The position numbers and the translations under genes were made by a program. Shown here piece after piece: positions 53,830-61,563 of a DNA stretch of 64,000 nt. This stretch comes from Solemya velum gill symbiont (lineage in GTDB: Bacteria > Pseudomonadota > Gammaproteobacteria > Chromatiales > Chromatiaceae), in NCBI RefSeq assembly GCF_000787395.1, contig NZ_JRAA01000001.1, forward strand, positions 558,001 through 622,000, in the 5' to 3' direction. Every line of letters begins with the position of its first letter. Positions within the stretch are counted from its first letter, which is position 1. A model generated the notes under the pieces. It worked only from the letters and a program-made list of their open reading frames with translations, had not been told where the DNA came from and made no database searches.

Positions 53830-55452
53830 TTACAAGAGCAAATGACGAATATCATCCAGCAAATCGCCAAGATAGGTTGTAAATCGCACACCCTGGGCAC
53901 CGTCAATCACACGGTGATCATAGGAGAGTGAGAAAGGCATGATCAGCCTGGGCTGGAATTCACTGCCATCCCAAACCGGCTTCATCTCTGCTTTTGAGAC
54001 GCCAAGAATGGCCACTTCGGGTGAATTGACGATTGGTGCAAACTGGGTTCCACCAATGCCTCCGAGGCTTGAAATGGAGAAACAGCCGCCCTGCATGTCA
54101 CTCGGCTTGAGCTTGCCTTCACGTGCGTTGGCAGAGATCTCCATCAGCTCAGCACCAATTTCAAAGATACCCTTTTTATCGACATTCTTGACGACGGGTA
54201 CAACCAGACCATTTGGCGTATCCACCGCAATGCCGATATTGACGTATTTTTTCAGAATCAGACGTTCGCCATCGGGTGTCAACGATGCATTGAACTCAGG
54301 CATTGTCTTGAGAGCCGTGGCACACGCCTTGAGCAGAAATGGCATAAAAGTCAGCTTGATACCCGCCTGCTCTGCACGCGCCTTCGACTCTTTGCGGAAC
54401 GCCTCCAGCTCGGTGATATCTGCATCATCAAACTGGGTGACATGCGGAATCGTCAGCCATGCACGATGCAAGTGCGCACCAGAGAGCTTCTTGATACGGC
54501 CGAGTTCGACCTCCTCGATTTCACCCCACTTGGAAAAATCGATATCGGGCGCTTCAGGCAGGCCAAATCCACCCTTGGCCTTGTCGCTGTCATGTTCAGC
54601 AATCACACGCTTGATGTGATTCTGAACATCCTCTTTAGTGATGCGTCCCTTGAGTCCGGTACCGACTACCTTGCTGACATCAACACCGAGTTCACGCGCA
54701 AACTGCCTTATCGCAGGACTGGCATGTGCCTTACCACCGGTTATGCGTTCAGGTGGTGCCGGCTCAACCGGTGAAGGCTTCATCTGTGTGTCACCAGGTG
54801 CCAATGGCTCGCTGGCAGCAGCCTGTGGAGCAGGTACGCTGGCAGGCTTTGAAGCAGCCGGAGCAGCAGCGCCGGTGGCAGTCATCATGGCGAACACATC
54901 ACCTTCACTGACACGATCACCAACCGACACTGCAACAGATTCAATTGTTCCTGCGTGAGTCGATGGTATCTCCATCGATGCCTTGTCGCTTTCAAGCGTG
55001 ATCAGCGACTGCTCTTTCTCTACCGTATCACCAGTCGAGACCAGCACCTCGATCACTTCAACATCATTGAAATCTCCGATATCAGGTACGTTCAGTTCAA
55101 CTGCCTGCGGTGATTCGGTAACTGCCGGGGCGTTTTCTACTGCATCAGCAACGGCAAATGCCTCATCAGACTCCCTTGCTTCGACTATCTCCTCTTCGAC
55201 GCTGGCAGATGTGTCACCACTCTCCTCCAGCGTAACCAGAAGGCTGCCCTCGCTTACCCTGTCTCCAACAGAGACGGCAACCGATACAATCTCGCCTGCG
55301 CTTGGCGTGGGAATCTCCATCGATGCCTTGTCACTTTCAACCGTAATAAGTGAATCTTCGGCATCGACCGTATCACCCGGTGAAACCAGCACCTCGATAA
55401 TCTCGACATCCGCGAAGTCACCAATGTCGGGTACTAATATTTCTGTCGTCAT
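53830..55452 (-). CDS. aceF: Pyruvate dehydrogenase dihydrolipoyl acetyltransferase (E2)
   Basis: The 540-residue E2 has two lipoyl domains (each with ESDKASMEIP, about residues 40 and 160), Ala/Pro-rich linkers, a subunit-binding domain (HASPAIRQFARELG), and the acetyltransferase core ending SYDHRVIDGAQGVRF with the active His. E. coli E2 has three lipoyl domains; this has two. Its start lies 17 bases after the aceE stop. Confidence 0.97.
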   Translation of the reverse strand: MTTEILVPDIGDFADVEIIEVLVSPGDTVDAEDSLITVESDKASMEIPTPSAGEIVSVAVSVGDRVSEGSLLVTLEESGDTSASVEEEIVEARESDEAFAVADAVENAPAVTESPQAVELNVPDIGDFNDVEVIEVLVSTGDTVEKEQSLITLESDKASMEIPSTHAGTIESVAVSVGDRVSEGDVFAMMTATGAAAPAASKPASVPAPQAAASEPLAPGDTQMKPSPVEPAPPERITGGKAHASPAIRQFARELGVDVSKVVGTGLKGRITKEDVQNHIKRVIAEHDSDKAKGGFGLPEAPDIDFSKWGEIEEVELGRIKKLSGAHLHRAWLTIPHVTQFDDADITELEAFRKESKARAEQAGIKLTFMPFLLKACATALKTMPEFNASLTPDGERLILKKYVNIGIAVDTPNGLVVPVVKNVDKKGIFEIGAELMEISANAREGKLKPSDMQGGCFSISSLGGIGGTQFAPIVNSPEVAILGVSKAEMKPVWDGSEFQPRLIMPFSLSYDHRVIDGAQGVRFTTYLGDLLDDIRHLLL

Positions 55453-55469: not shown

Positions 55470-58127
55470 TCAGACCGTTACCGGATTAGGTTTTTCCGGA
55501 TTGATGTCATATTTCTCAATCGCCTTTTTCACTGCACTGGCTGCAATTTCACCATCATCGGCAAGCGCCTTGAGGGCAGCAACAACAATGTAGTAACGAT
55601 TGACTTCGAAGAAACGACGCAACGCTTCACGCATATCCGAGCGGCCGAAACCATCGGTGCCCAGTGTGAAGTAACTGCGATCGATATAAGGACGGATTTG
55701 ATCTGCATAGGTGCGGATGTAATCCGTTGCTGCAATGACAGGCCCTTCTGTTCCCGACAGCTGTTCTTCAACATAGCTGCGCTTGGGGGCCTCATCAGGG
55801 TGTAGCATGTTCCAGCGTTCCGTATCGATACCGTCACGACGCAGTTCGTTGAAACTGGTGACACTCCACACATCTGCAGCAATGCCAAAGTCATTCTGTA
55901 ACAGTTCTGCTGCAGCAATCACTTCGCGCAGGATGGTGCCCGAACCGAGTAACTGCACACGCTGCTTGGCCTTACCGCCCTCACTGAAACGGTACATGCC
56001 CTTGAGAATACCCTCTTCACTGCCTTCCGGCATTGCGGGCTGGGCATAATTCTCGTTCATCACCGCGACATAGTAGAACACCCTGTCCTTGTCGACGTAC
56101 ATGCGACGCATGCCGTCGTGAAGGATAGTGACCAGTTCGTATGCAAAACAGGGATCATAGGAGACACAGTTCGGAATTGTGCTTGCAACCAGGTGTCCAT
56201 GACCATCCTGGTGCTGCAATCCCTCACCTGCCAGCGTGGTTCGACCGGCAGTACCGCCGATCAGGAAGCCGCGTGCCTGCATGTCGCCAGCAGCCCATGC
56301 TAGGTCGCCGATACGCTGAAAACCGAACATCGAGTAATAGATGTAGAACGGAATCATCGACACGCCGTGGTTGCTGTAGGCGGTTGCCGCAGCAGTCCAC
56401 TCTGACATGGCGCCGGCCTCGTTGATACCTTCCTGCAGAATCTGTCCCTTGGAGTCCTCGCGGTACCACATCAGCTGATCTGAATCCTCGGGCTCATAGA
56501 GCTGACCTGAAGAGGAGTAGATACCGAGTTGACGGAACATGCCTTCCATACCGAAGGTACGTGCCTCGTCAGGAACAATCGGCACAACGCGCTTACCAAC
56601 CTGCTTGTCACGAATCAGGGTTGTCAGGAAACGCACGAATACCATGGTGGTCGAGAGTTCTCGATCACCACTGCTTTCGAGCAGTGACTTGAATGTCTCC
56701 AGAGGTGGGATCTCAAGCGTCTCGACATCATCCAGACGTGAAGGGAATGAACCACCAAGTGCCTCACGGCGCTCTTTCAGGTAGATGGCCTCGGTGCTGT
56801 CTTCAGCCGGCTTGTAAAAAGGCGTCGAACTGAGTTCATCATCCGGGATCGGAATATTGAAGCGGTCGCGGAATGCACGCAGTGACTTGTCACCCATCTT
56901 TTTCTGGGAGTGCGTGGTGTTCTGACCTTCACCCGCTTCACCCATGCCGTAACCCTTGACGGTCTTGGCGAGAATGACAGTCGGCTGTCCCTTGTGGTTC
57001 ATTGCGGCTGAATAGGCAGAGAAAACTTTCGCCGGATCGTGTCCGCCACGATTAAGACGGAAAATATCTTCATCGCTCATGTTGGCGACGAGTTCCTTCA
57101 ATTCAGGATACTCACCAAAGAAATGCTCACGCGTATACTTACCACCGCGTGCCTTGTAGGCCTGGTAGTCGCCGTCGACACACTCTTCCATGCGCTTGCG
57201 CAGCAGTCCGCTTTTATCACGCGCCAGCAGTGGATCCCAGAAGCTACCCCATACAACCTTGATAACATTCCAGCCGGCACCACGGAATATCGCTTCGAGC
57301 TCCTGGATGATCTTGCCGTTACCACGCACAGGCCCGTCGAGACGCTGCAGGTTACAGTTGACCACGAACACCAGGTTGTCGAGTTTTTCACGTCCGGCAA
57401 GTGTGATAGCACCGAGAGATTCCGGCTCGTCTGTTTCGCCATCACCAAGGAAAGCCCAGACTTTACGCTTACCAGCATCGATCATTTCACGGTCATGCAG
57501 GTAATTCATGAAGCGCGCCTGGTAAATCGCCATGATCGGACCAAGTCCCATGGAGACGGTCGGGAACTGCCAGAAATCTGGCATCAGCCACGGGTGCGGA
57601 TAGGATGAAAGACCCTCTCCGTCAACCTCCTGGCGAAAATTGTGCATCTGGTCTTTGCTCAGGCGTCCTTCAAGATAAGCACGCGAATAGATTCCGGGAG
57701 CTGAGTGTCCCTGGAAAAAAACCAGGTCACCGCCATGATTCTCATCACGGGCATGGAAAAAATGGTTCATGCCGACATCATAGAGTGTGGCACTGGAAGC
57801 AAAACTGGCGATATGGCCGCCGAGCTCTGTAGAAATTCTGTTCGCCTGCACCACCATCGCCATTGCATTCCAGCGTGTCAGCGAGCGAATGCGGCGTTCA
57901 ACTGCCCGGTCACCCGGATAGCGTTCCTGCAGATGTTCAGGAATGGTGTTGAGGTAGGCAGTATTTGCCGAATAAGGTAAGTAGGCACCGCGGCGACGCG
58001 CCTTGTCGATCAGTTTCTCGAGAAGGTAATGCGCACGATCTGTTCCTTCGTGCTCGATGACGGCGTCAAGCGCCTCAATCCACTCCTGCGTTTCCTGTGG
58101 GTCTACATCTTTCGTATTGTCTGTCAT
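55470..58127 (-). CDS. aceE: Pyruvate dehydrogenase E1, homodimeric type
   Basis: The 885-residue E1 decarboxylates pyruvate with ThDP. The ThDP motif is FLGDGETDEPESLGAI with the closing VNCN, and the two conserved loops are HSQKKMGDKSLRAFRDRFNI and HHFFHARDEN-like text near residue 130. It is the first gene of aceE-aceF-lpd-ybfF. The length is typical. Confidence 0.97.
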   Translation of the reverse strand: MTDNTKDVDPQETQEWIEALDAVIEHEGTDRAHYLLEKLIDKARRRGAYLPYSANTAYLNTIPEHLQERYPGDRAVERRIRSLTRWNAMAMVVQANRISTELGGHIASFASSATLYDVGMNHFFHARDENHGGDLVFFQGHSAPGIYSRAYLEGRLSKDQMHNFRQEVDGEGLSSYPHPWLMPDFWQFPTVSMGLGPIMAIYQARFMNYLHDREMIDAGKRKVWAFLGDGETDEPESLGAITLAGREKLDNLVFVVNCNLQRLDGPVRGNGKIIQELEAIFRGAGWNVIKVVWGSFWDPLLARDKSGLLRKRMEECVDGDYQAYKARGGKYTREHFFGEYPELKELVANMSDEDIFRLNRGGHDPAKVFSAYSAAMNHKGQPTVILAKTVKGYGMGEAGEGQNTTHSQKKMGDKSLRAFRDRFNIPIPDDELSSTPFYKPAEDSTEAIYLKERREALGGSFPSRLDDVETLEIPPLETFKSLLESSGDRELSTTMVFVRFLTTLIRDKQVGKRVVPIVPDEARTFGMEGMFRQLGIYSSSGQLYEPEDSDQLMWYREDSKGQILQEGINEAGAMSEWTAAATAYSNHGVSMIPFYIYYSMFGFQRIGDLAWAAGDMQARGFLIGGTAGRTTLAGEGLQHQDGHGHLVASTIPNCVSYDPCFAYELVTILHDGMRRMYVDKDRVFYYVAVMNENYAQPAMPEGSEEGILKGMYRFSEGGKAKQRVQLLGSGTILREVIAAAELLQNDFGIAADVWSVTSFNELRRDGIDTERWNMLHPDEAPKRSYVEEQLSGTEGPVIAATDYIRTYADQIRPYIDRSYFTLGTDGFGRSDMREALRRFFEVNRYYIVVAALKALADDGEIAASAVKKAIEKYDINPEKPNPVTV

Positions 58128-58477
58128 GTGGGTTCATCCTTCGACAGTGTTTAGCCAATGCATACGTGAAGTTTCCACGCTGCGCTTAAATAACGATCTG
58201 GAGACGGGGTCACCGTCCTGCAAACCGGCAACAGTCTCCGGTAATACCGGAATCTGTGCAAACAGGTTATTGCATCGGTTGATCACAGACTGTTATATAC
58301 AGGGGGGAAATTTAAACAAAACGCACTGCACAAATGCAATCAGGAAGTTGCAGTTAATCCATGTTTTTGCATGGGTATCGATGAATAAACTGTTGATACT
58401 GCGTAATTAGCCGATAGTGGTGTAAAATGCGTGAGAATATCTCCCATATTAGTCACCTGGCTGGAAACTGTACGCAT
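58128..58477. other. Upstream region of the pyruvate dehydrogenase operon
   Basis: These 350 bases hold the likely aceE promoter (58292-58319) and no gene. I saw no clear PdhR-type operator (AATTGGTNNNACCAATT). Confidence 0.5.
58292..58319 (-). promoter_or_regulatory. Candidate aceE promoter
   Basis: On the minus strand TTGTTT (58319-58314), 16 bases, then TATAAC (58297-58292). It predicts a leader of about 158 bases before ATG 58127. Confidence 0.4.
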
Positions 58478-58503
58478 AAAAAAAGCCCCTTACGGGGCTT
58501 TTT
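58478..58503. terminator. Terminator after the Lys/Arg/Glu-rich exported-protein gene
   Basis: GCCCC (58485-58489) pairs with GGGGC (58494-58498), flanked by A's and T's on both sides. It fits termination of the minus-strand gene at 58541 and works both ways. Confidence 0.85.
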
Positions 58504-58790
58504 CCAGAATCGCTTAAAGCGAATCGATCAGCTGTTGTTATTACTTACCGGTAACAGCTTCTGCGCGCAGTGATTCGAAATGCTTATCCATTTCGGCACG
58601 GCGGGCGTCGATTTCCTTGCGGATCTCTTCACGATGCTGGTCCATTTCCGCCTTGTGGGCTGCACGGCGTGCTTCCATCTCGGCTTCAATCTCTGCACGT
58701 TCAGCATCCATCTGCTTGCGAATCTCTTCGATTGAGACCATTTCTACAGGAGCAGGCATACCTGCTTCTGCACGGCGCTTTGCAATCTCG

Positions 58791-58849
58791 GCATCACGAG
58801 TTGCACGGCGCTTGTCGGCTTCTGCTTTTGCTGCTGCACGCTTGGCGTC
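58791..58849 (+). repeat. 59-bp direct repeat within the coiled-coil gene, copy 1
   Basis: It is identical to 59010-59068, 219 bases (73 codons) away, so the repeat is in frame and the protein unit is 73 residues long. The identity at third codon positions points to recent duplication or gene conversion. Confidence 0.8.
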
Positions 58850-59009
58850 CATCTCGGCTTTCATTGCTTCACGTTCGGCATCCATCTCTTTGCGAATCTC
58901 GTCGAAAGACTTCTCTTCTGCTGGCTGTTCAGCAGTTGCAAGCTTGTCAGCCTCTGCACGATGCTGTGCTATTTCAGCTTCACGTGCTGCACGACGCTCT
59001 GCAATTTCT

Positions 59010-59068
59010 GCATCACGAGTTGCACGGCGCTTGTCGGCTTCTGCTTTTGCTGCTGCACGCTTGGCGTC
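59010..59068 (+). repeat. 59-bp direct repeat within the coiled-coil gene, copy 2
   Basis: Identical to 58791-58849. The conserved part encodes DAKRAAAKAEADKRRATRDA. Confidence 0.8.
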
Positions 59069-59762
59069 GATCTCTGCGCGAACTTCTTCGTATGTTGGCA
59101 GTTCAACAGGCGCCTGGATACCAGCTTCTGCACTACGCTTGTCCATCTCTGCTATATGGGCTGCACGACGTGTTTCCATCTCTGCTTTCATCGCTTCGTG
59201 CCTGGCATCCATCTCTTTACCAATCTCTTCGAAAGATTTCTGCTCTGCTGGCTGCTCGGCAGTTGCAAGCTTGTCTGCTTCTGCACGACGGACGCTGTGC
59301 AATTTCTGCATCACGTGCTGCACGGCGCTTGTCAGATTCTGCCTGGCGAGCTGCACGCTTGGCGTCCATCTCGGCTCTCATCGCTTCACGTTCAGCATCC
59401 ATCTGCTTGCGAAACTCTTCAATTGAAGAATCAACTGCTACAACGGTTTCATGCTCGGCGGTGAGCTTGTCCATCTCGGCCTTGTGCGCAGCAACGCGAG
59501 ATTCCATTTCAGCCTTCAGAGCTGCACGGCGAGCTTCTGACTGCTTGCGAATTGCTTCGAAATCAGGCATTTCAACAACAGGCTTGGCAGCCACATCAGC
59601 CGCTGTGGCTTCTACAGTCTGGTCAGCAGAAGCTGTGCCAGCCATTGATGCCAACAGGATTGCAGCGGTGAGTTTTTTTACTGAAAACATAACTATTCTC
59701 CTAAAATGACTGTCTGCTGCAACTGTTGATACAAACAGACGGATATCTTCGTATTTTCTGAT

Positions 59763-59789
59763 AAAAAGCCATCACCCGAAGGTGACGGC
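59763..59789 (-). terminator. Terminator after the first sulfur-globule-like gene
   Basis: On the minus strand a 9-bp stem GCCGTCACC/GGTGATGGC (59789-59781 with 59776-59768) has a TTCG tetraloop, and TTTTT follows. One G-T mismatch is wobble-compatible. Confidence 0.9.
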
Positions 59790-59805
59790 ATAATGAATTG
59801 TTTGA

Positions 59806-60231
59806 TTACTCGGCAGCTGCTGCAGTTGCAACAGGTGCGGCCTGGGGAGCTGGAGCTGCTACTGGGGCGTAATAGCCGTAAGGAGCGCCGTAGTAGCCAT
59901 TGTTTGCGTAGTAACGGTTATCCCAGTTGTTATAACCATTACCGTAGTAGTAGCTGTCTGTATCGCCATCGAAATCGGCATCAACGTCAAAGTCGAAATC
60001 CATGCTGAAGTTGAAGCTGCCACGTCCGCGTCCACGACCATTGCCGTCGCCACGTCCATAACCGTAGCCATCGTTGTACCAACGGTTATCGTTGTAGTAA
60101 TCATCATCGTCACTGAAGAAAGGAATATCCCAATCATCGTTATCGCTGAAGAAAGGGATGTCCCAGTCAGCAATGGCAGCAGAAGAACTCATGATTGCGG
60201 CAATAGCAGCTGCAGTAATGATCTTTTTCAT
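59806..60231 (-). CDS. Small exported Gly/Tyr/Asp-rich protein, sulfur-globule-protein-like (copy 1)
   Basis: The 141-residue protein has a signal peptide (KKIITAAAIAAIMSSSAAIA). It then has an acidic aromatic repeat (DWDIPFFSDND and DWDIPFFSDDDD), a Gly/Arg stretch (YGYGRGDGNGRGRGRG), FNFSMDFDFDVDADFDGD, and Tyr/Asn/Gly-rich and Pro/Ala-rich ends. Low complexity and composition resemble sulfur globule envelope proteins, but the match is by style only. GGAG lies six bases before ATG 60231. It is a paralogue of the next gene, with nearly the same leader and signal peptide. Confidence 0.65.
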   Translation of the reverse strand: MKKIITAAAIAAIMSSSAAIADWDIPFFSDNDDWDIPFFSDDDDYYNDNRWYNDGYGYGRGDGNGRGRGRGSFNFSMDFDFDVDADFDGDTDSYYYGNGYNNWDNRYYANNGYYGAPYGYYAPVAAPAPQAAPVATAAAAE

Positions 60232-60421
60232 TTCAATCTCCGTAGAAGACTCAATCTGTTAAAAACTGTTTAAACGGCTGTGCCGCTTTCGTTACTGATA
60301 AGTATATTAGTATTTTCTTATTTTGCAATATTTATTTTAATTATTTTTTCTTATGTAAACGATTTGATTGATTGAATATGCCTTAATCACCTGGAAATAA
60401 TGCCGTAAATCGATTGCATAA

Positions 60422-60457
60422 AAAAACACCGGACAGGTTACCCCGCCCGGTGTTTTT
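60422..60457 (-). terminator. Terminator after the second sulfur-globule-like gene
   Basis: AAAAACACCGG (60422-60432) pairs with CCGGTGTTTTT (60447-60457); on the minus strand a T-run follows. Confidence 0.85.
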
Positions 60458-60479
60458 ATCAGCTAACTGCCAGTATGAC

Positions 60480-60914
60480 TTACTGTGGGCAGTTACCAGT
60501 AGCTGCAGGTGCCTGAGGGGCAGCTGGAGCAACAGGAGCTGGTCCGTAAGGAGCTGGACCGTAGCCGTAAGGAGCGCCGTAGCGACCGTTGTAGCTGTTG
60601 TAACGGTTGTCCCAACGGTTGTCCATGTTGTTGTAACCACGACCGTAGTAAGAGTTATCAGTCTCACCGTCGAATTCGGTATCAGCGTCAGCATCCATGT
60701 TGAAGTTGAAGCTACCACGACCCTTGCCACGTCCACGGCCGTCACCACGTCCACGACCGTCACCACGTCCGTAACCGTAACCATCGTTGTTCCAGTTGTT
60801 GTCGTTGTAGTAGTTGTCGTCGTTATCAAAGAAAGGCATGTCCCACTCAGCAACTGCAGCTGAAGAGGCGCCCATGATCGCTGCGATTGCAGCTGCTGTA
60901 ATAATCTTTTTCAT
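60480..60914 (-). CDS. Small exported Gly/Tyr/Asp-rich protein, sulfur-globule-protein-like (copy 2)
   Basis: The 144-residue protein shares its first 13 residues (MKKIITAAAIAAI) and GYGYGRGDG with copy 1. It has WDMPFFDNDD, then a Gly/Arg run (GRGRGDGRGRGKGRG), SFNFNMDADAD and a Tyr/Gly/Pro tail with APYGYGPAPYGPAP. The C-terminus has a single Cys (ATGNCPQ). Its start is ATG 60914 with GGAG upstream; ATG 60938 is an upstream alternative. The shared layout suggests one duplicated locus encoding structural proteins. A sulfur globule function is likely but unproven. Confidence 0.65.
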   Translation of the reverse strand: MKKIITAAAIAAIMGASSAAVAEWDMPFFDNDDNYYNDNNWNNDGYGYGRGDGRGRGDGRGRGKGRGSFNFNMDADADTEFDGETDNSYYGRGYNNMDNRWDNRYNSYNGRYGAPYGYGPAPYGPAPVAPAAPQAPAATGNCPQ

Positions 60915-61061
60915 TTCAGTCTCCAAAAGAGTTTTCATGTTTCAATCGTTTCGTGATCCGGAAGTACCGCGCGCCGTCTCAGTGACAATAAGAATATAAG
61001 TAATTGCTTAAATTGTCTAATTTGAGATGCTTATATTGCTAATTAGTTATTCTTATTAAGG

Positions 61062-61086: not shown

Positions 61087-61563
61087 TCAGGAGTGTGTCT
61101 CTGGTTGCTTCCCGAAAAACGCATCGTACAGCAGGAATACGACACCCAGGAAGATAGCACTATCAGCCACATTGAAAGCGGGCCAGCTCCAGCGGTCATA
61201 ATAGAAGAGCAGAAAATCGATAACCTGGCCATAGAGCACACGATCAATCAGGTTACCGATGGCGCCTCCAAGCACAAGGCTGACACCAACAGCAACAACT
61301 CGCTCATGTGGTTGCAGGCGCTTGAGCCATACGAGCAGCCCAATCGATATCACGATCGAAAGCACGATGAAAAACCAGCGCTGCCAGCCCCCCGCATCAG
61401 CGAGGAAACTGAATGCAGCACCCTTGTTATACACAAGTGTCAGGTTAAAAAAGCCCTCGATCACGGGCAACTGTTCCCTGAATTCGAAACTTGCCTCTAC
61501 CCACAGCTTTGTCGCCAGGTCGAAGACAACAACAATCAGAGATAGCAACAGCCAGCGCAGCAT
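61087..61563 (-). CDS. lspA: Lipoprotein signal peptidase (signal peptidase II)
   Basis: The 158-residue membrane peptidase has four helices and the catalytic Asp pair in GNLIDRV and FNVADSAIFLG, with NLTLVYNKGAAFSFL. It cleaves lipoprotein signal peptides after lipid attachment. Its ATG overlaps the ileS stop as ATGA. The order ileS-lspA is common in gammaproteobacteria. Confidence 0.97.
   Translation of the reverse strand: MLRWLLLSLIVVVFDLATKLWVEASFEFREQLPVIEGFFNLTLVYNKGAAFSFLADAGGWQRWFFIVLSIVISIGLLVWLKRLQPHERVVAVGVSLVLGGAIGNLIDRVLYGQVIDFLLFYYDRWSWPAFNVADSAIFLGVVFLLYDAFFGKQPETHS

Follow-up and report, generated by a model that had tools for sequence, protein, structure and literature searches.

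Two sulfur globule proteins and a broken exported coiled coil beside aceE in the Solemya velum gill symbiont, with fusions of the two kinds of domain at the same locus in its relatives

Three neighbouring minus-strand genes of the Solemya velum gill symbiont, two for sulfur globule proteins (SGPs; genes 1 and 2) and one for an exported coiled coil (gene 3), probably contribute to a protein envelope that encloses elemental sulfur in the periplasm, in which the SGPs would make the coat and the coil a scaffold; judging from sequence, we put the probability of this reading at about 70%. It rests on the assignment of genes 1 and 2 to the SGP family, on the export signals and on a terminator for each gene, on a conserved locus, on a fusion of the two kinds of domain in relatives, and on homology between the fused coils and SgpD of Allochromatium vinosum. 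What is new here is the fusion itself: a coat domain and a rod domain are joined in one chain at a conserved rnt-mlaA...aceE-aceF locus. No description of an SGP–coil fusion was found in the literature searched, where only the SgpD paper (PMC10386293) ties a coiled coil to globule proteins.

The window, i.e., the whole stretch of DNA analysed, comprises 64 kb (positions 558001-622000 of contig C1) of an assembly of 2,702,377 bases in 10 contigs, and the published genome is likewise 2.7 Mb with 10 scaffolds retained (PMC4287430). The sister genome used for comparisons belongs to the nearest relative, the gill symbiont of S. elarraichensis. The reading frames in the window bear out the three minus-strand genes with signal-peptide-like starts described in the earlier note, and the order gene 1-gene 2-gene 3-aceE-aceF is kept in one orientation (Table 1). 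Rfam and tRNA scans of the 64-kb window gave no matches, and in a promoter scan of the window promoter-like sites were no commoner than in shuffled sequences.

Table 1. Features of the cluster and its neighbours (positions are those of the window)
Feature	Position	Strand	Basis or remark
lspA, left-hand neighbour in the window	61087..61563	-	relatives have mlaA-rnt on that side
Gene 1, SGP, 144 aa	60480..60914	-	PF17228, 39.0 bits
Single Cys of gene 1, third from the C-terminus (GNCPQ)	60489-60491	-	Cys survey
Gene 1 terminator hairpin	60420..60466	-	fold -26.8 kcal/mol, z -6.2
Gene 2, SGP, 141 aa	59806..60231	-	PF17228, 28.5 bits
33-nt tandem duplication in gene 2, encoding DWDIPFFSD(N/D)DD	60099..60169	-	Tandem Repeats Finder
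Gene 2 terminator hairpin	59764..59793	-	fold -17.0 kcal/mol, z -5.4
Gene 3, frameshifted gene for an exported coiled coil with 11-residue repeats, putatively a divergent SgpD-type	58541..59690	-	frames, repeat analysis, AlphaFold, coil profile
CGTCCGTC, 4-bp duplication breaking gene 3	59287..59294	-	single CGTC in the sister species
Gene 3 terminator hairpin	58474..58512	-	fold -18.8 kcal/mol, z -5.2
aceE, pyruvate dehydrogenase E1	55470..58127	-	tblastn of relatives' loci, 74-78% identity; right-hand neighbour kept in relatives
aceF, pyruvate dehydrogenase E2	53830..55452	-	next kept neighbour after aceE

The products of genes 1 and 2 both score above the Pfam gathering cut-off of the SGP model PF17228 (26.7 bits), in agreement with the sulfur-globule identity proposed for them earlier; an NCBIfam search returned no family for genes 1, 2 or 3. 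They are indeed Gly/Tyr/Asp-rich paralogues with near-identical starts: both contain MKKIITAAAIAAIM, and by inspection their signal peptides read MKKIITAAAIAAIM(G)(A)SSAA(V/I)A in front of (E/D)WD. In gene 1 the signal peptide takes up about 22 residues, after which the mature protein begins with EWDMPFF. Translation of this gene most likely starts at 60914, where ATGAAAAAG follows GGAGACTGAA, and not at 60938, the position given in the earlier note.

With SgpA and SgpB of A. vinosum, genes 1 and 2 have in common the Pfam model, a Sec signal peptide, a Gly/Tyr/Asn-rich body and a Pro/Ala-rich tail, as well as separate transcription units and an organism that combines Sox lacking SoxCD with rDsr. 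The differences lie in the acidic starts DWDIPFF/EWDMPFF, which stand where SgpA and SgpB have WWGGPW, in the single Cys near the end of gene 1, in the copy number of about eight and in charge. SgpA-C have been described as proteins of extreme hydrophobicity; genes 1 and 2 are aromatic and Gly-rich, but their net charges of -7 and -17 make them acidic. Most other SGPs collected are less acidic, and the value for the mature gene 2 protein is the lowest among 105 SGP-like proteins. The acidic motif, considered atypical at first, does replace the classic start, but it is better described as a lineage variant, which L017, L063, L076 and L079, from further symbionts and MAGs, share. The acidic-aromatic unit noticed as a repeat corresponds to a 33-nt tandem duplication, which is also present in the sister species. 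Gene 2 is under strong purifying selection, with a dN/dS of 0.07 against its orthologue from the S. elarraichensis symbiont.

The window genome has about eight related SGP loci, of which two run off a contig end. Two loci of contig C3 (L059 and L060, near 77.7 kb and 337.7 kb) lie 260 kb apart and are 98.4% identical over 570 bp, whereas their sister-species matches reach only about 93-95%, so that gene conversion has probably made them evolve in concert. As to cysteine, it occurs in 14 of the 105 distinct SGP-like mature proteins, gene 1 and several fusions among them, and each of the 14 has exactly one, placed 2 to 12 residues from the C-terminus and never elsewhere; several of these proteins are closely related, which reduces the number of independent events to about six. 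Other single-Cys loci are L079, L104, L111, L113, L115, L119, L126, L005, L044 and L068. It might be guessed that the near-C-terminal Cys serves as a redox or sulfur-chain anchor.

The distribution of the family tracks dsrA. PF17228 is found over its cut-off in 42 of 274 genomes spread over Gammaproteobacteria, and dsrA (counted when whole or present as a large fragment at a contig end) accompanies it in 38 of the 42 carriers versus 56 of the 232 non-carriers; the odds ratio is 30, and the Fisher p of 2e-16 is optimistic because of the relatedness of the genomes, although the direction is clear. The family is therefore not spread evenly in non-sulfur bacteria, the pattern that the earlier note had named as counting against its reading, and none of 14 named control genomes has a match over the cut-off. 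The window genome has dsrA. Four genomes (G089, G156, G207, G244) carry an SGP over the cut-off with no dsrA match; these organisms might form globules by way of a different sulfur pathway, or their genomes may be incomplete.

The S. velum symbiont possesses SoxYZAXB and rDsr but no SoxCD, and this set of genes is associated with the deposition of sulfur (PMC4287430). What counts against a sulfur envelope is that sulfur of microscopic size has not been observed in the gills of S. velum or in its symbionts (PMC4287430). The authors of the genome paper, in whose text the term 'sgp' is absent, have suggested that sulfur is stored in a not easily seen form or consumed very fast (PMC4287430). Deposits in S. 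velum may thus be small, short-lived or absent. That the proteins are made while sulfur is kept in a form invisible by light microscopy, as nanoscale or polysulfane deposits, is a serious possibility, if somewhat short of even odds; the suggestion in the genome paper and the strong purifying selection on gene 2 both favour it. This reading is compatible with a protein envelope and differs from it in the physical form of the sulfur.

Each of the three genes has its own strong terminator, as claimed earlier: a hairpin with a T tract lies 3′ of all of them, with z scores computed against shuffled sequences (Table 1), and the alignment shows that the gene 2 terminator is kept in the sister species. 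With a separate terminator per gene, coat and scaffold can be produced in different amounts.

A link between coat and scaffold comes from relatives. Sixteen genomes of 11 genera share the order rnt-mlaA-sgp-(SGP domain fused to coil)-aceE-aceF, with all genes pointing the same way and with rnt beyond the stretch examined or unmatched in L109 and L111; as these loci were chosen for a coil near an SGP gene, the number is not a frequency, and the shared flanks are what counts. The fusions, which were found with a coil profile and inspection after a strict composition filter for neighbouring coils had missed them, are single chains of about 190-317 aa (e.g., L092, L096, L099, L108). Their N-terminal part exceeded the PF17228 cut-off in all three fusions tested with Pfam, which has no family for the coil part of the fusions or for gene 3; nor does NCBIfam have one for SgpD, the fusion tails or the coil of L076. 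The block of genes 1, 2 and 3 stands beside the same aceE-aceF pair, with the coil between the SGP genes and aceE, and gene 3 agrees with the fusions in locus, order, orientation, export and its place directly upstream of aceE. The difference is that the coil is a separate protein with SGP genes as neighbours in the Solemya symbionts and in genus g2, and part of a fused chain in the relatives with fusions. L076, from another genus than the window, has an SGP followed by an uninterrupted stand-alone coil of 359 aa. Across 116 family genomes there are 63 loci with an SgpD-type coil; an SGP gene lies no more than 600 bp away from at least 33 of these, against a chance expectation of about 0.5% per locus. 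Since many relatives make the SGP domain and the coil as one protein at this locus, the joint role as envelope or scaffold suggested in the earlier note gains support, although gene 3 itself is broken here.

Two further loci may be mentioned. A coil protein beside an SGP gene and aceE (L118 453-1301) bears a short SGP-like remnant, WYWGAPPVYPYGVYG, and looks like an intermediate between the fusions and SgpD. In a gammaproteobacterial MAG (L017 7986-11988), the gene after three SGP genes is predicted to encode a membrane protein that contains a long coiled coil, a further case of SGP genes next to a coil.

SgpD (Alvin_2515) is the fourth globule protein of A. vinosum and has been reported to be nearly restricted to Chromatiaceae. 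The published sgpD terminator (PMC10386293) has one occurrence in 210 family genomes; the gene 3′ of the located sgpD is 216 nt away and is part of an exporter, as published (PMC10386293), and the protein has a 22-residue signal peptide followed by Trp, as described. Against a profile made from the fusion tails SgpD scores 69 bits (the best of 600 shuffles reaches 9.7), with an E of 6.7e-18 in a whole-genome search, and the coil half of the fusions is therefore homologous to SgpD, the tails being clear SgpD homologues. SgpD-mCherry localises to the globules of A. vinosum, and A. vinosum without SgpD still makes globules (PMC10386293), which suggests that the rod would be a helper and not the wall itself.

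Gene 3 may be a more distant relative of this group. It escaped the first coil profile (A1) at E<=1e-4, but with a richer profile (A2) it is the sole SgpD-type match in its own genome (E 9.9e-4, a weak match), as its orthologue is in the sister genome (E 1.3e-4), whereas only one of seven comparison genomes yields anything at E<=10, a match at 3.8. Both pieces of gene 3 reach about 22 bits, again a weak match that nevertheless exceeds all 600 shuffles made for each piece, half of which keep the 11-residue columns; it spans positions 60-126 of the 149 in the model, i.e., the second half only. Like SgpD, gene 3 is exported, has long predicted helices rich in K/R/E/Q/A/M and is followed by its own terminator. 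Unlike SgpD, it has no Pro-rich centre, it has strong 11-residue repeats that the same test does not find in SgpD, it adjoins SGP genes and aceE where SgpD adjoins an RND exporter, and it is frameshifted. Inspection also found the first-helix motif EAQRKFAEQ to be absent from gene 3, and gene 3 was accordingly rejected as an SgpD orthologue. It is the likely counterpart of the SgpD-type coil, given where it lies, its export and its coiled-coil nature.

The gene 3 frame opens at ATG 59690 with the signal peptide MFSVKKLTAAILLASMAGTASA, ending before D, continues into a K/R/E/A-rich body and breaks at CGTCCGTC; beyond the break, down to 58541, only another frame is open, from an internal GTG. 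An unbroken gene 3 in the S. velum assembly is ruled out by this frameshift. The coiled coil recognised in the earlier note stands, while the single open frame and the 73-residue unit ascribed to it do not: the dominant repeat is 11 residues long (lag-11 z = 6.2 and 7.2; typically AxKAEMDxRRA), longer units measure about 46-62 residues, and the 73-residue period, rejected as the main unit, is weaker (z = 4.1) and confined to the C-terminal part. For the open C-terminal part, AlphaFold predicts helices at residues 20-55, 67-119, 129-175 and 187-247 (36-61 residues each) connected by short linkers, with a mean pLDDT of 84. A PDB sequence search with the coil gave no match.

In the sister species, which has a single CGTC, the original frame continues past that site to 58541, but the orthologue carries an in-frame TAG after residue 182 (L063 7961-7963), with the frame conserved behind it. 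It is conceivable, and we hold it as a tentative possibility, that genes 1 and 2 serve sulfur storage while gene 3 is dying in Solemya symbionts, having lost its SGP domain and first helix and leaving only the SGP coat. The independent disruptions in the two symbionts, the lack of an SGP domain on gene 3 and the lack of visible globules in S. velum agree with such a loss. However, the segments ahead of, between and behind the breaks all have a dN/dS of about 0.2, indicating constraint until recently, so that the breaks are either recent or draft-assembly errors in repetitive DNA; moreover, the coil next to an SGP gene in another genus (L076) is uninterrupted. The gene 3 product may be missing here, truncated or wrongly sequenced.

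The left flank of the cluster also departs from that of the relatives, as lspA-ileS is found in place of mlaA-rnt. The window genome has mlaA-rnt, along with SGPs, where contig C3 ends. The sister assembly keeps mlaA, two SGPs and the coil side by side (mlaA-SGP-SGP-coil), and one of its contigs ends in lspA-SGP. The joins of both Solemya symbiont assemblies coincide with SGP repeats, and the lspA-ileS flank may reflect either a true recombination or rearrangement or a misassembly join inside an SGP repeat. Contig ends of both assemblies carry SGP copies (L058 at the start of contig C3, L061 at the end of C5, L063-L066), and the sister gene adjoining mlaA resembles a mosaic of two S. velum copies. 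The linkage of the locus may have been scrambled by SGP repeats.

Two other readings seem improbable. The three products could be exported low-complexity proteins of a general kind, belonging to a surface, an adhesive or an outer-membrane scaffold, whose resemblance to the SGP model is one of composition alone, as might be argued from the low-complexity nature of PF17228, the modest scores and an acidity that departs from classic SGPs, but this model also picks out two loci of A. vinosum (E 5e-28 and 8e-20) and tracks dsrA with no control genome over the cut-off, and the order of the locus is conserved over eleven genera. Gene 3 could also be a Skp/OmpH-like periplasmic chaperone or a peptidoglycan-linked coil lying beside SGP genes by chance, given its weak Pfam OmpH match (E 0.11) and the similar composition of many periplasmic coiled coils, but this is hard to square with the conserved sgp-coil-aceE order, the fusion of the coil to the SGP domain in relatives and the uniqueness of the profile match in its genome.

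If the three genes do encode an envelope, genes 1 and 2 would supply Sec-exported, largely unstructured Gly/Tyr/Asn/Pro-rich chains that would bind and coat the sulfur formed by the truncated Sox system and by sulfide oxidation. Gene 3, as the positional counterpart of the SgpD-type coil that relatives fuse to an SGP domain, would provide a rod that contacts the coat, links its proteins and gives the shell stiffness or a set size, and separate transcription of coat and rod genes would set their ratio; the binding of sulfur, the contact between coil and coat and the part played by gene 3 in this symbiont are steps that we infer. The broken frames of gene 3 in both symbionts, its weak and partial profile match, the acidity of genes 1 and 2 and the globules made by A. 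vinosum without SgpD count against this model. A broader scheme, which is rather doubtful when taken as a whole, may also be imagined. Envelopes of the family would be built from a two-part module, with an SGP domain as coat and an SgpD-type coiled coil as rod, which in the ancestor formed a single fused protein encoded between mlaA and aceE; SgpD and gene 3 would be derived split forms. The acidic split version of Solemya symbionts would coat deposits below the limit of visibility, and some SGPs would tether or cap polysulfane chains with their single C-terminal Cys.

The protein wrapping of stored sulfur is poorly understood, and the few proteins studied all come from one purple sulfur bacterium. 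The fusion of coat and rod at the same chromosomal spot in relatives suggests how a sulfur-storage coat is built and offers a direct hypothesis for the architecture of the envelope. It also ties SgpD, for which neither Pfam nor NCBIfam has a family, to a wider domain, and cultured relatives offer a test. For the Solemya symbiont, the finding raises the question of why many sulfur-coat genes should be kept under purifying selection in a bacterium without visible globules.
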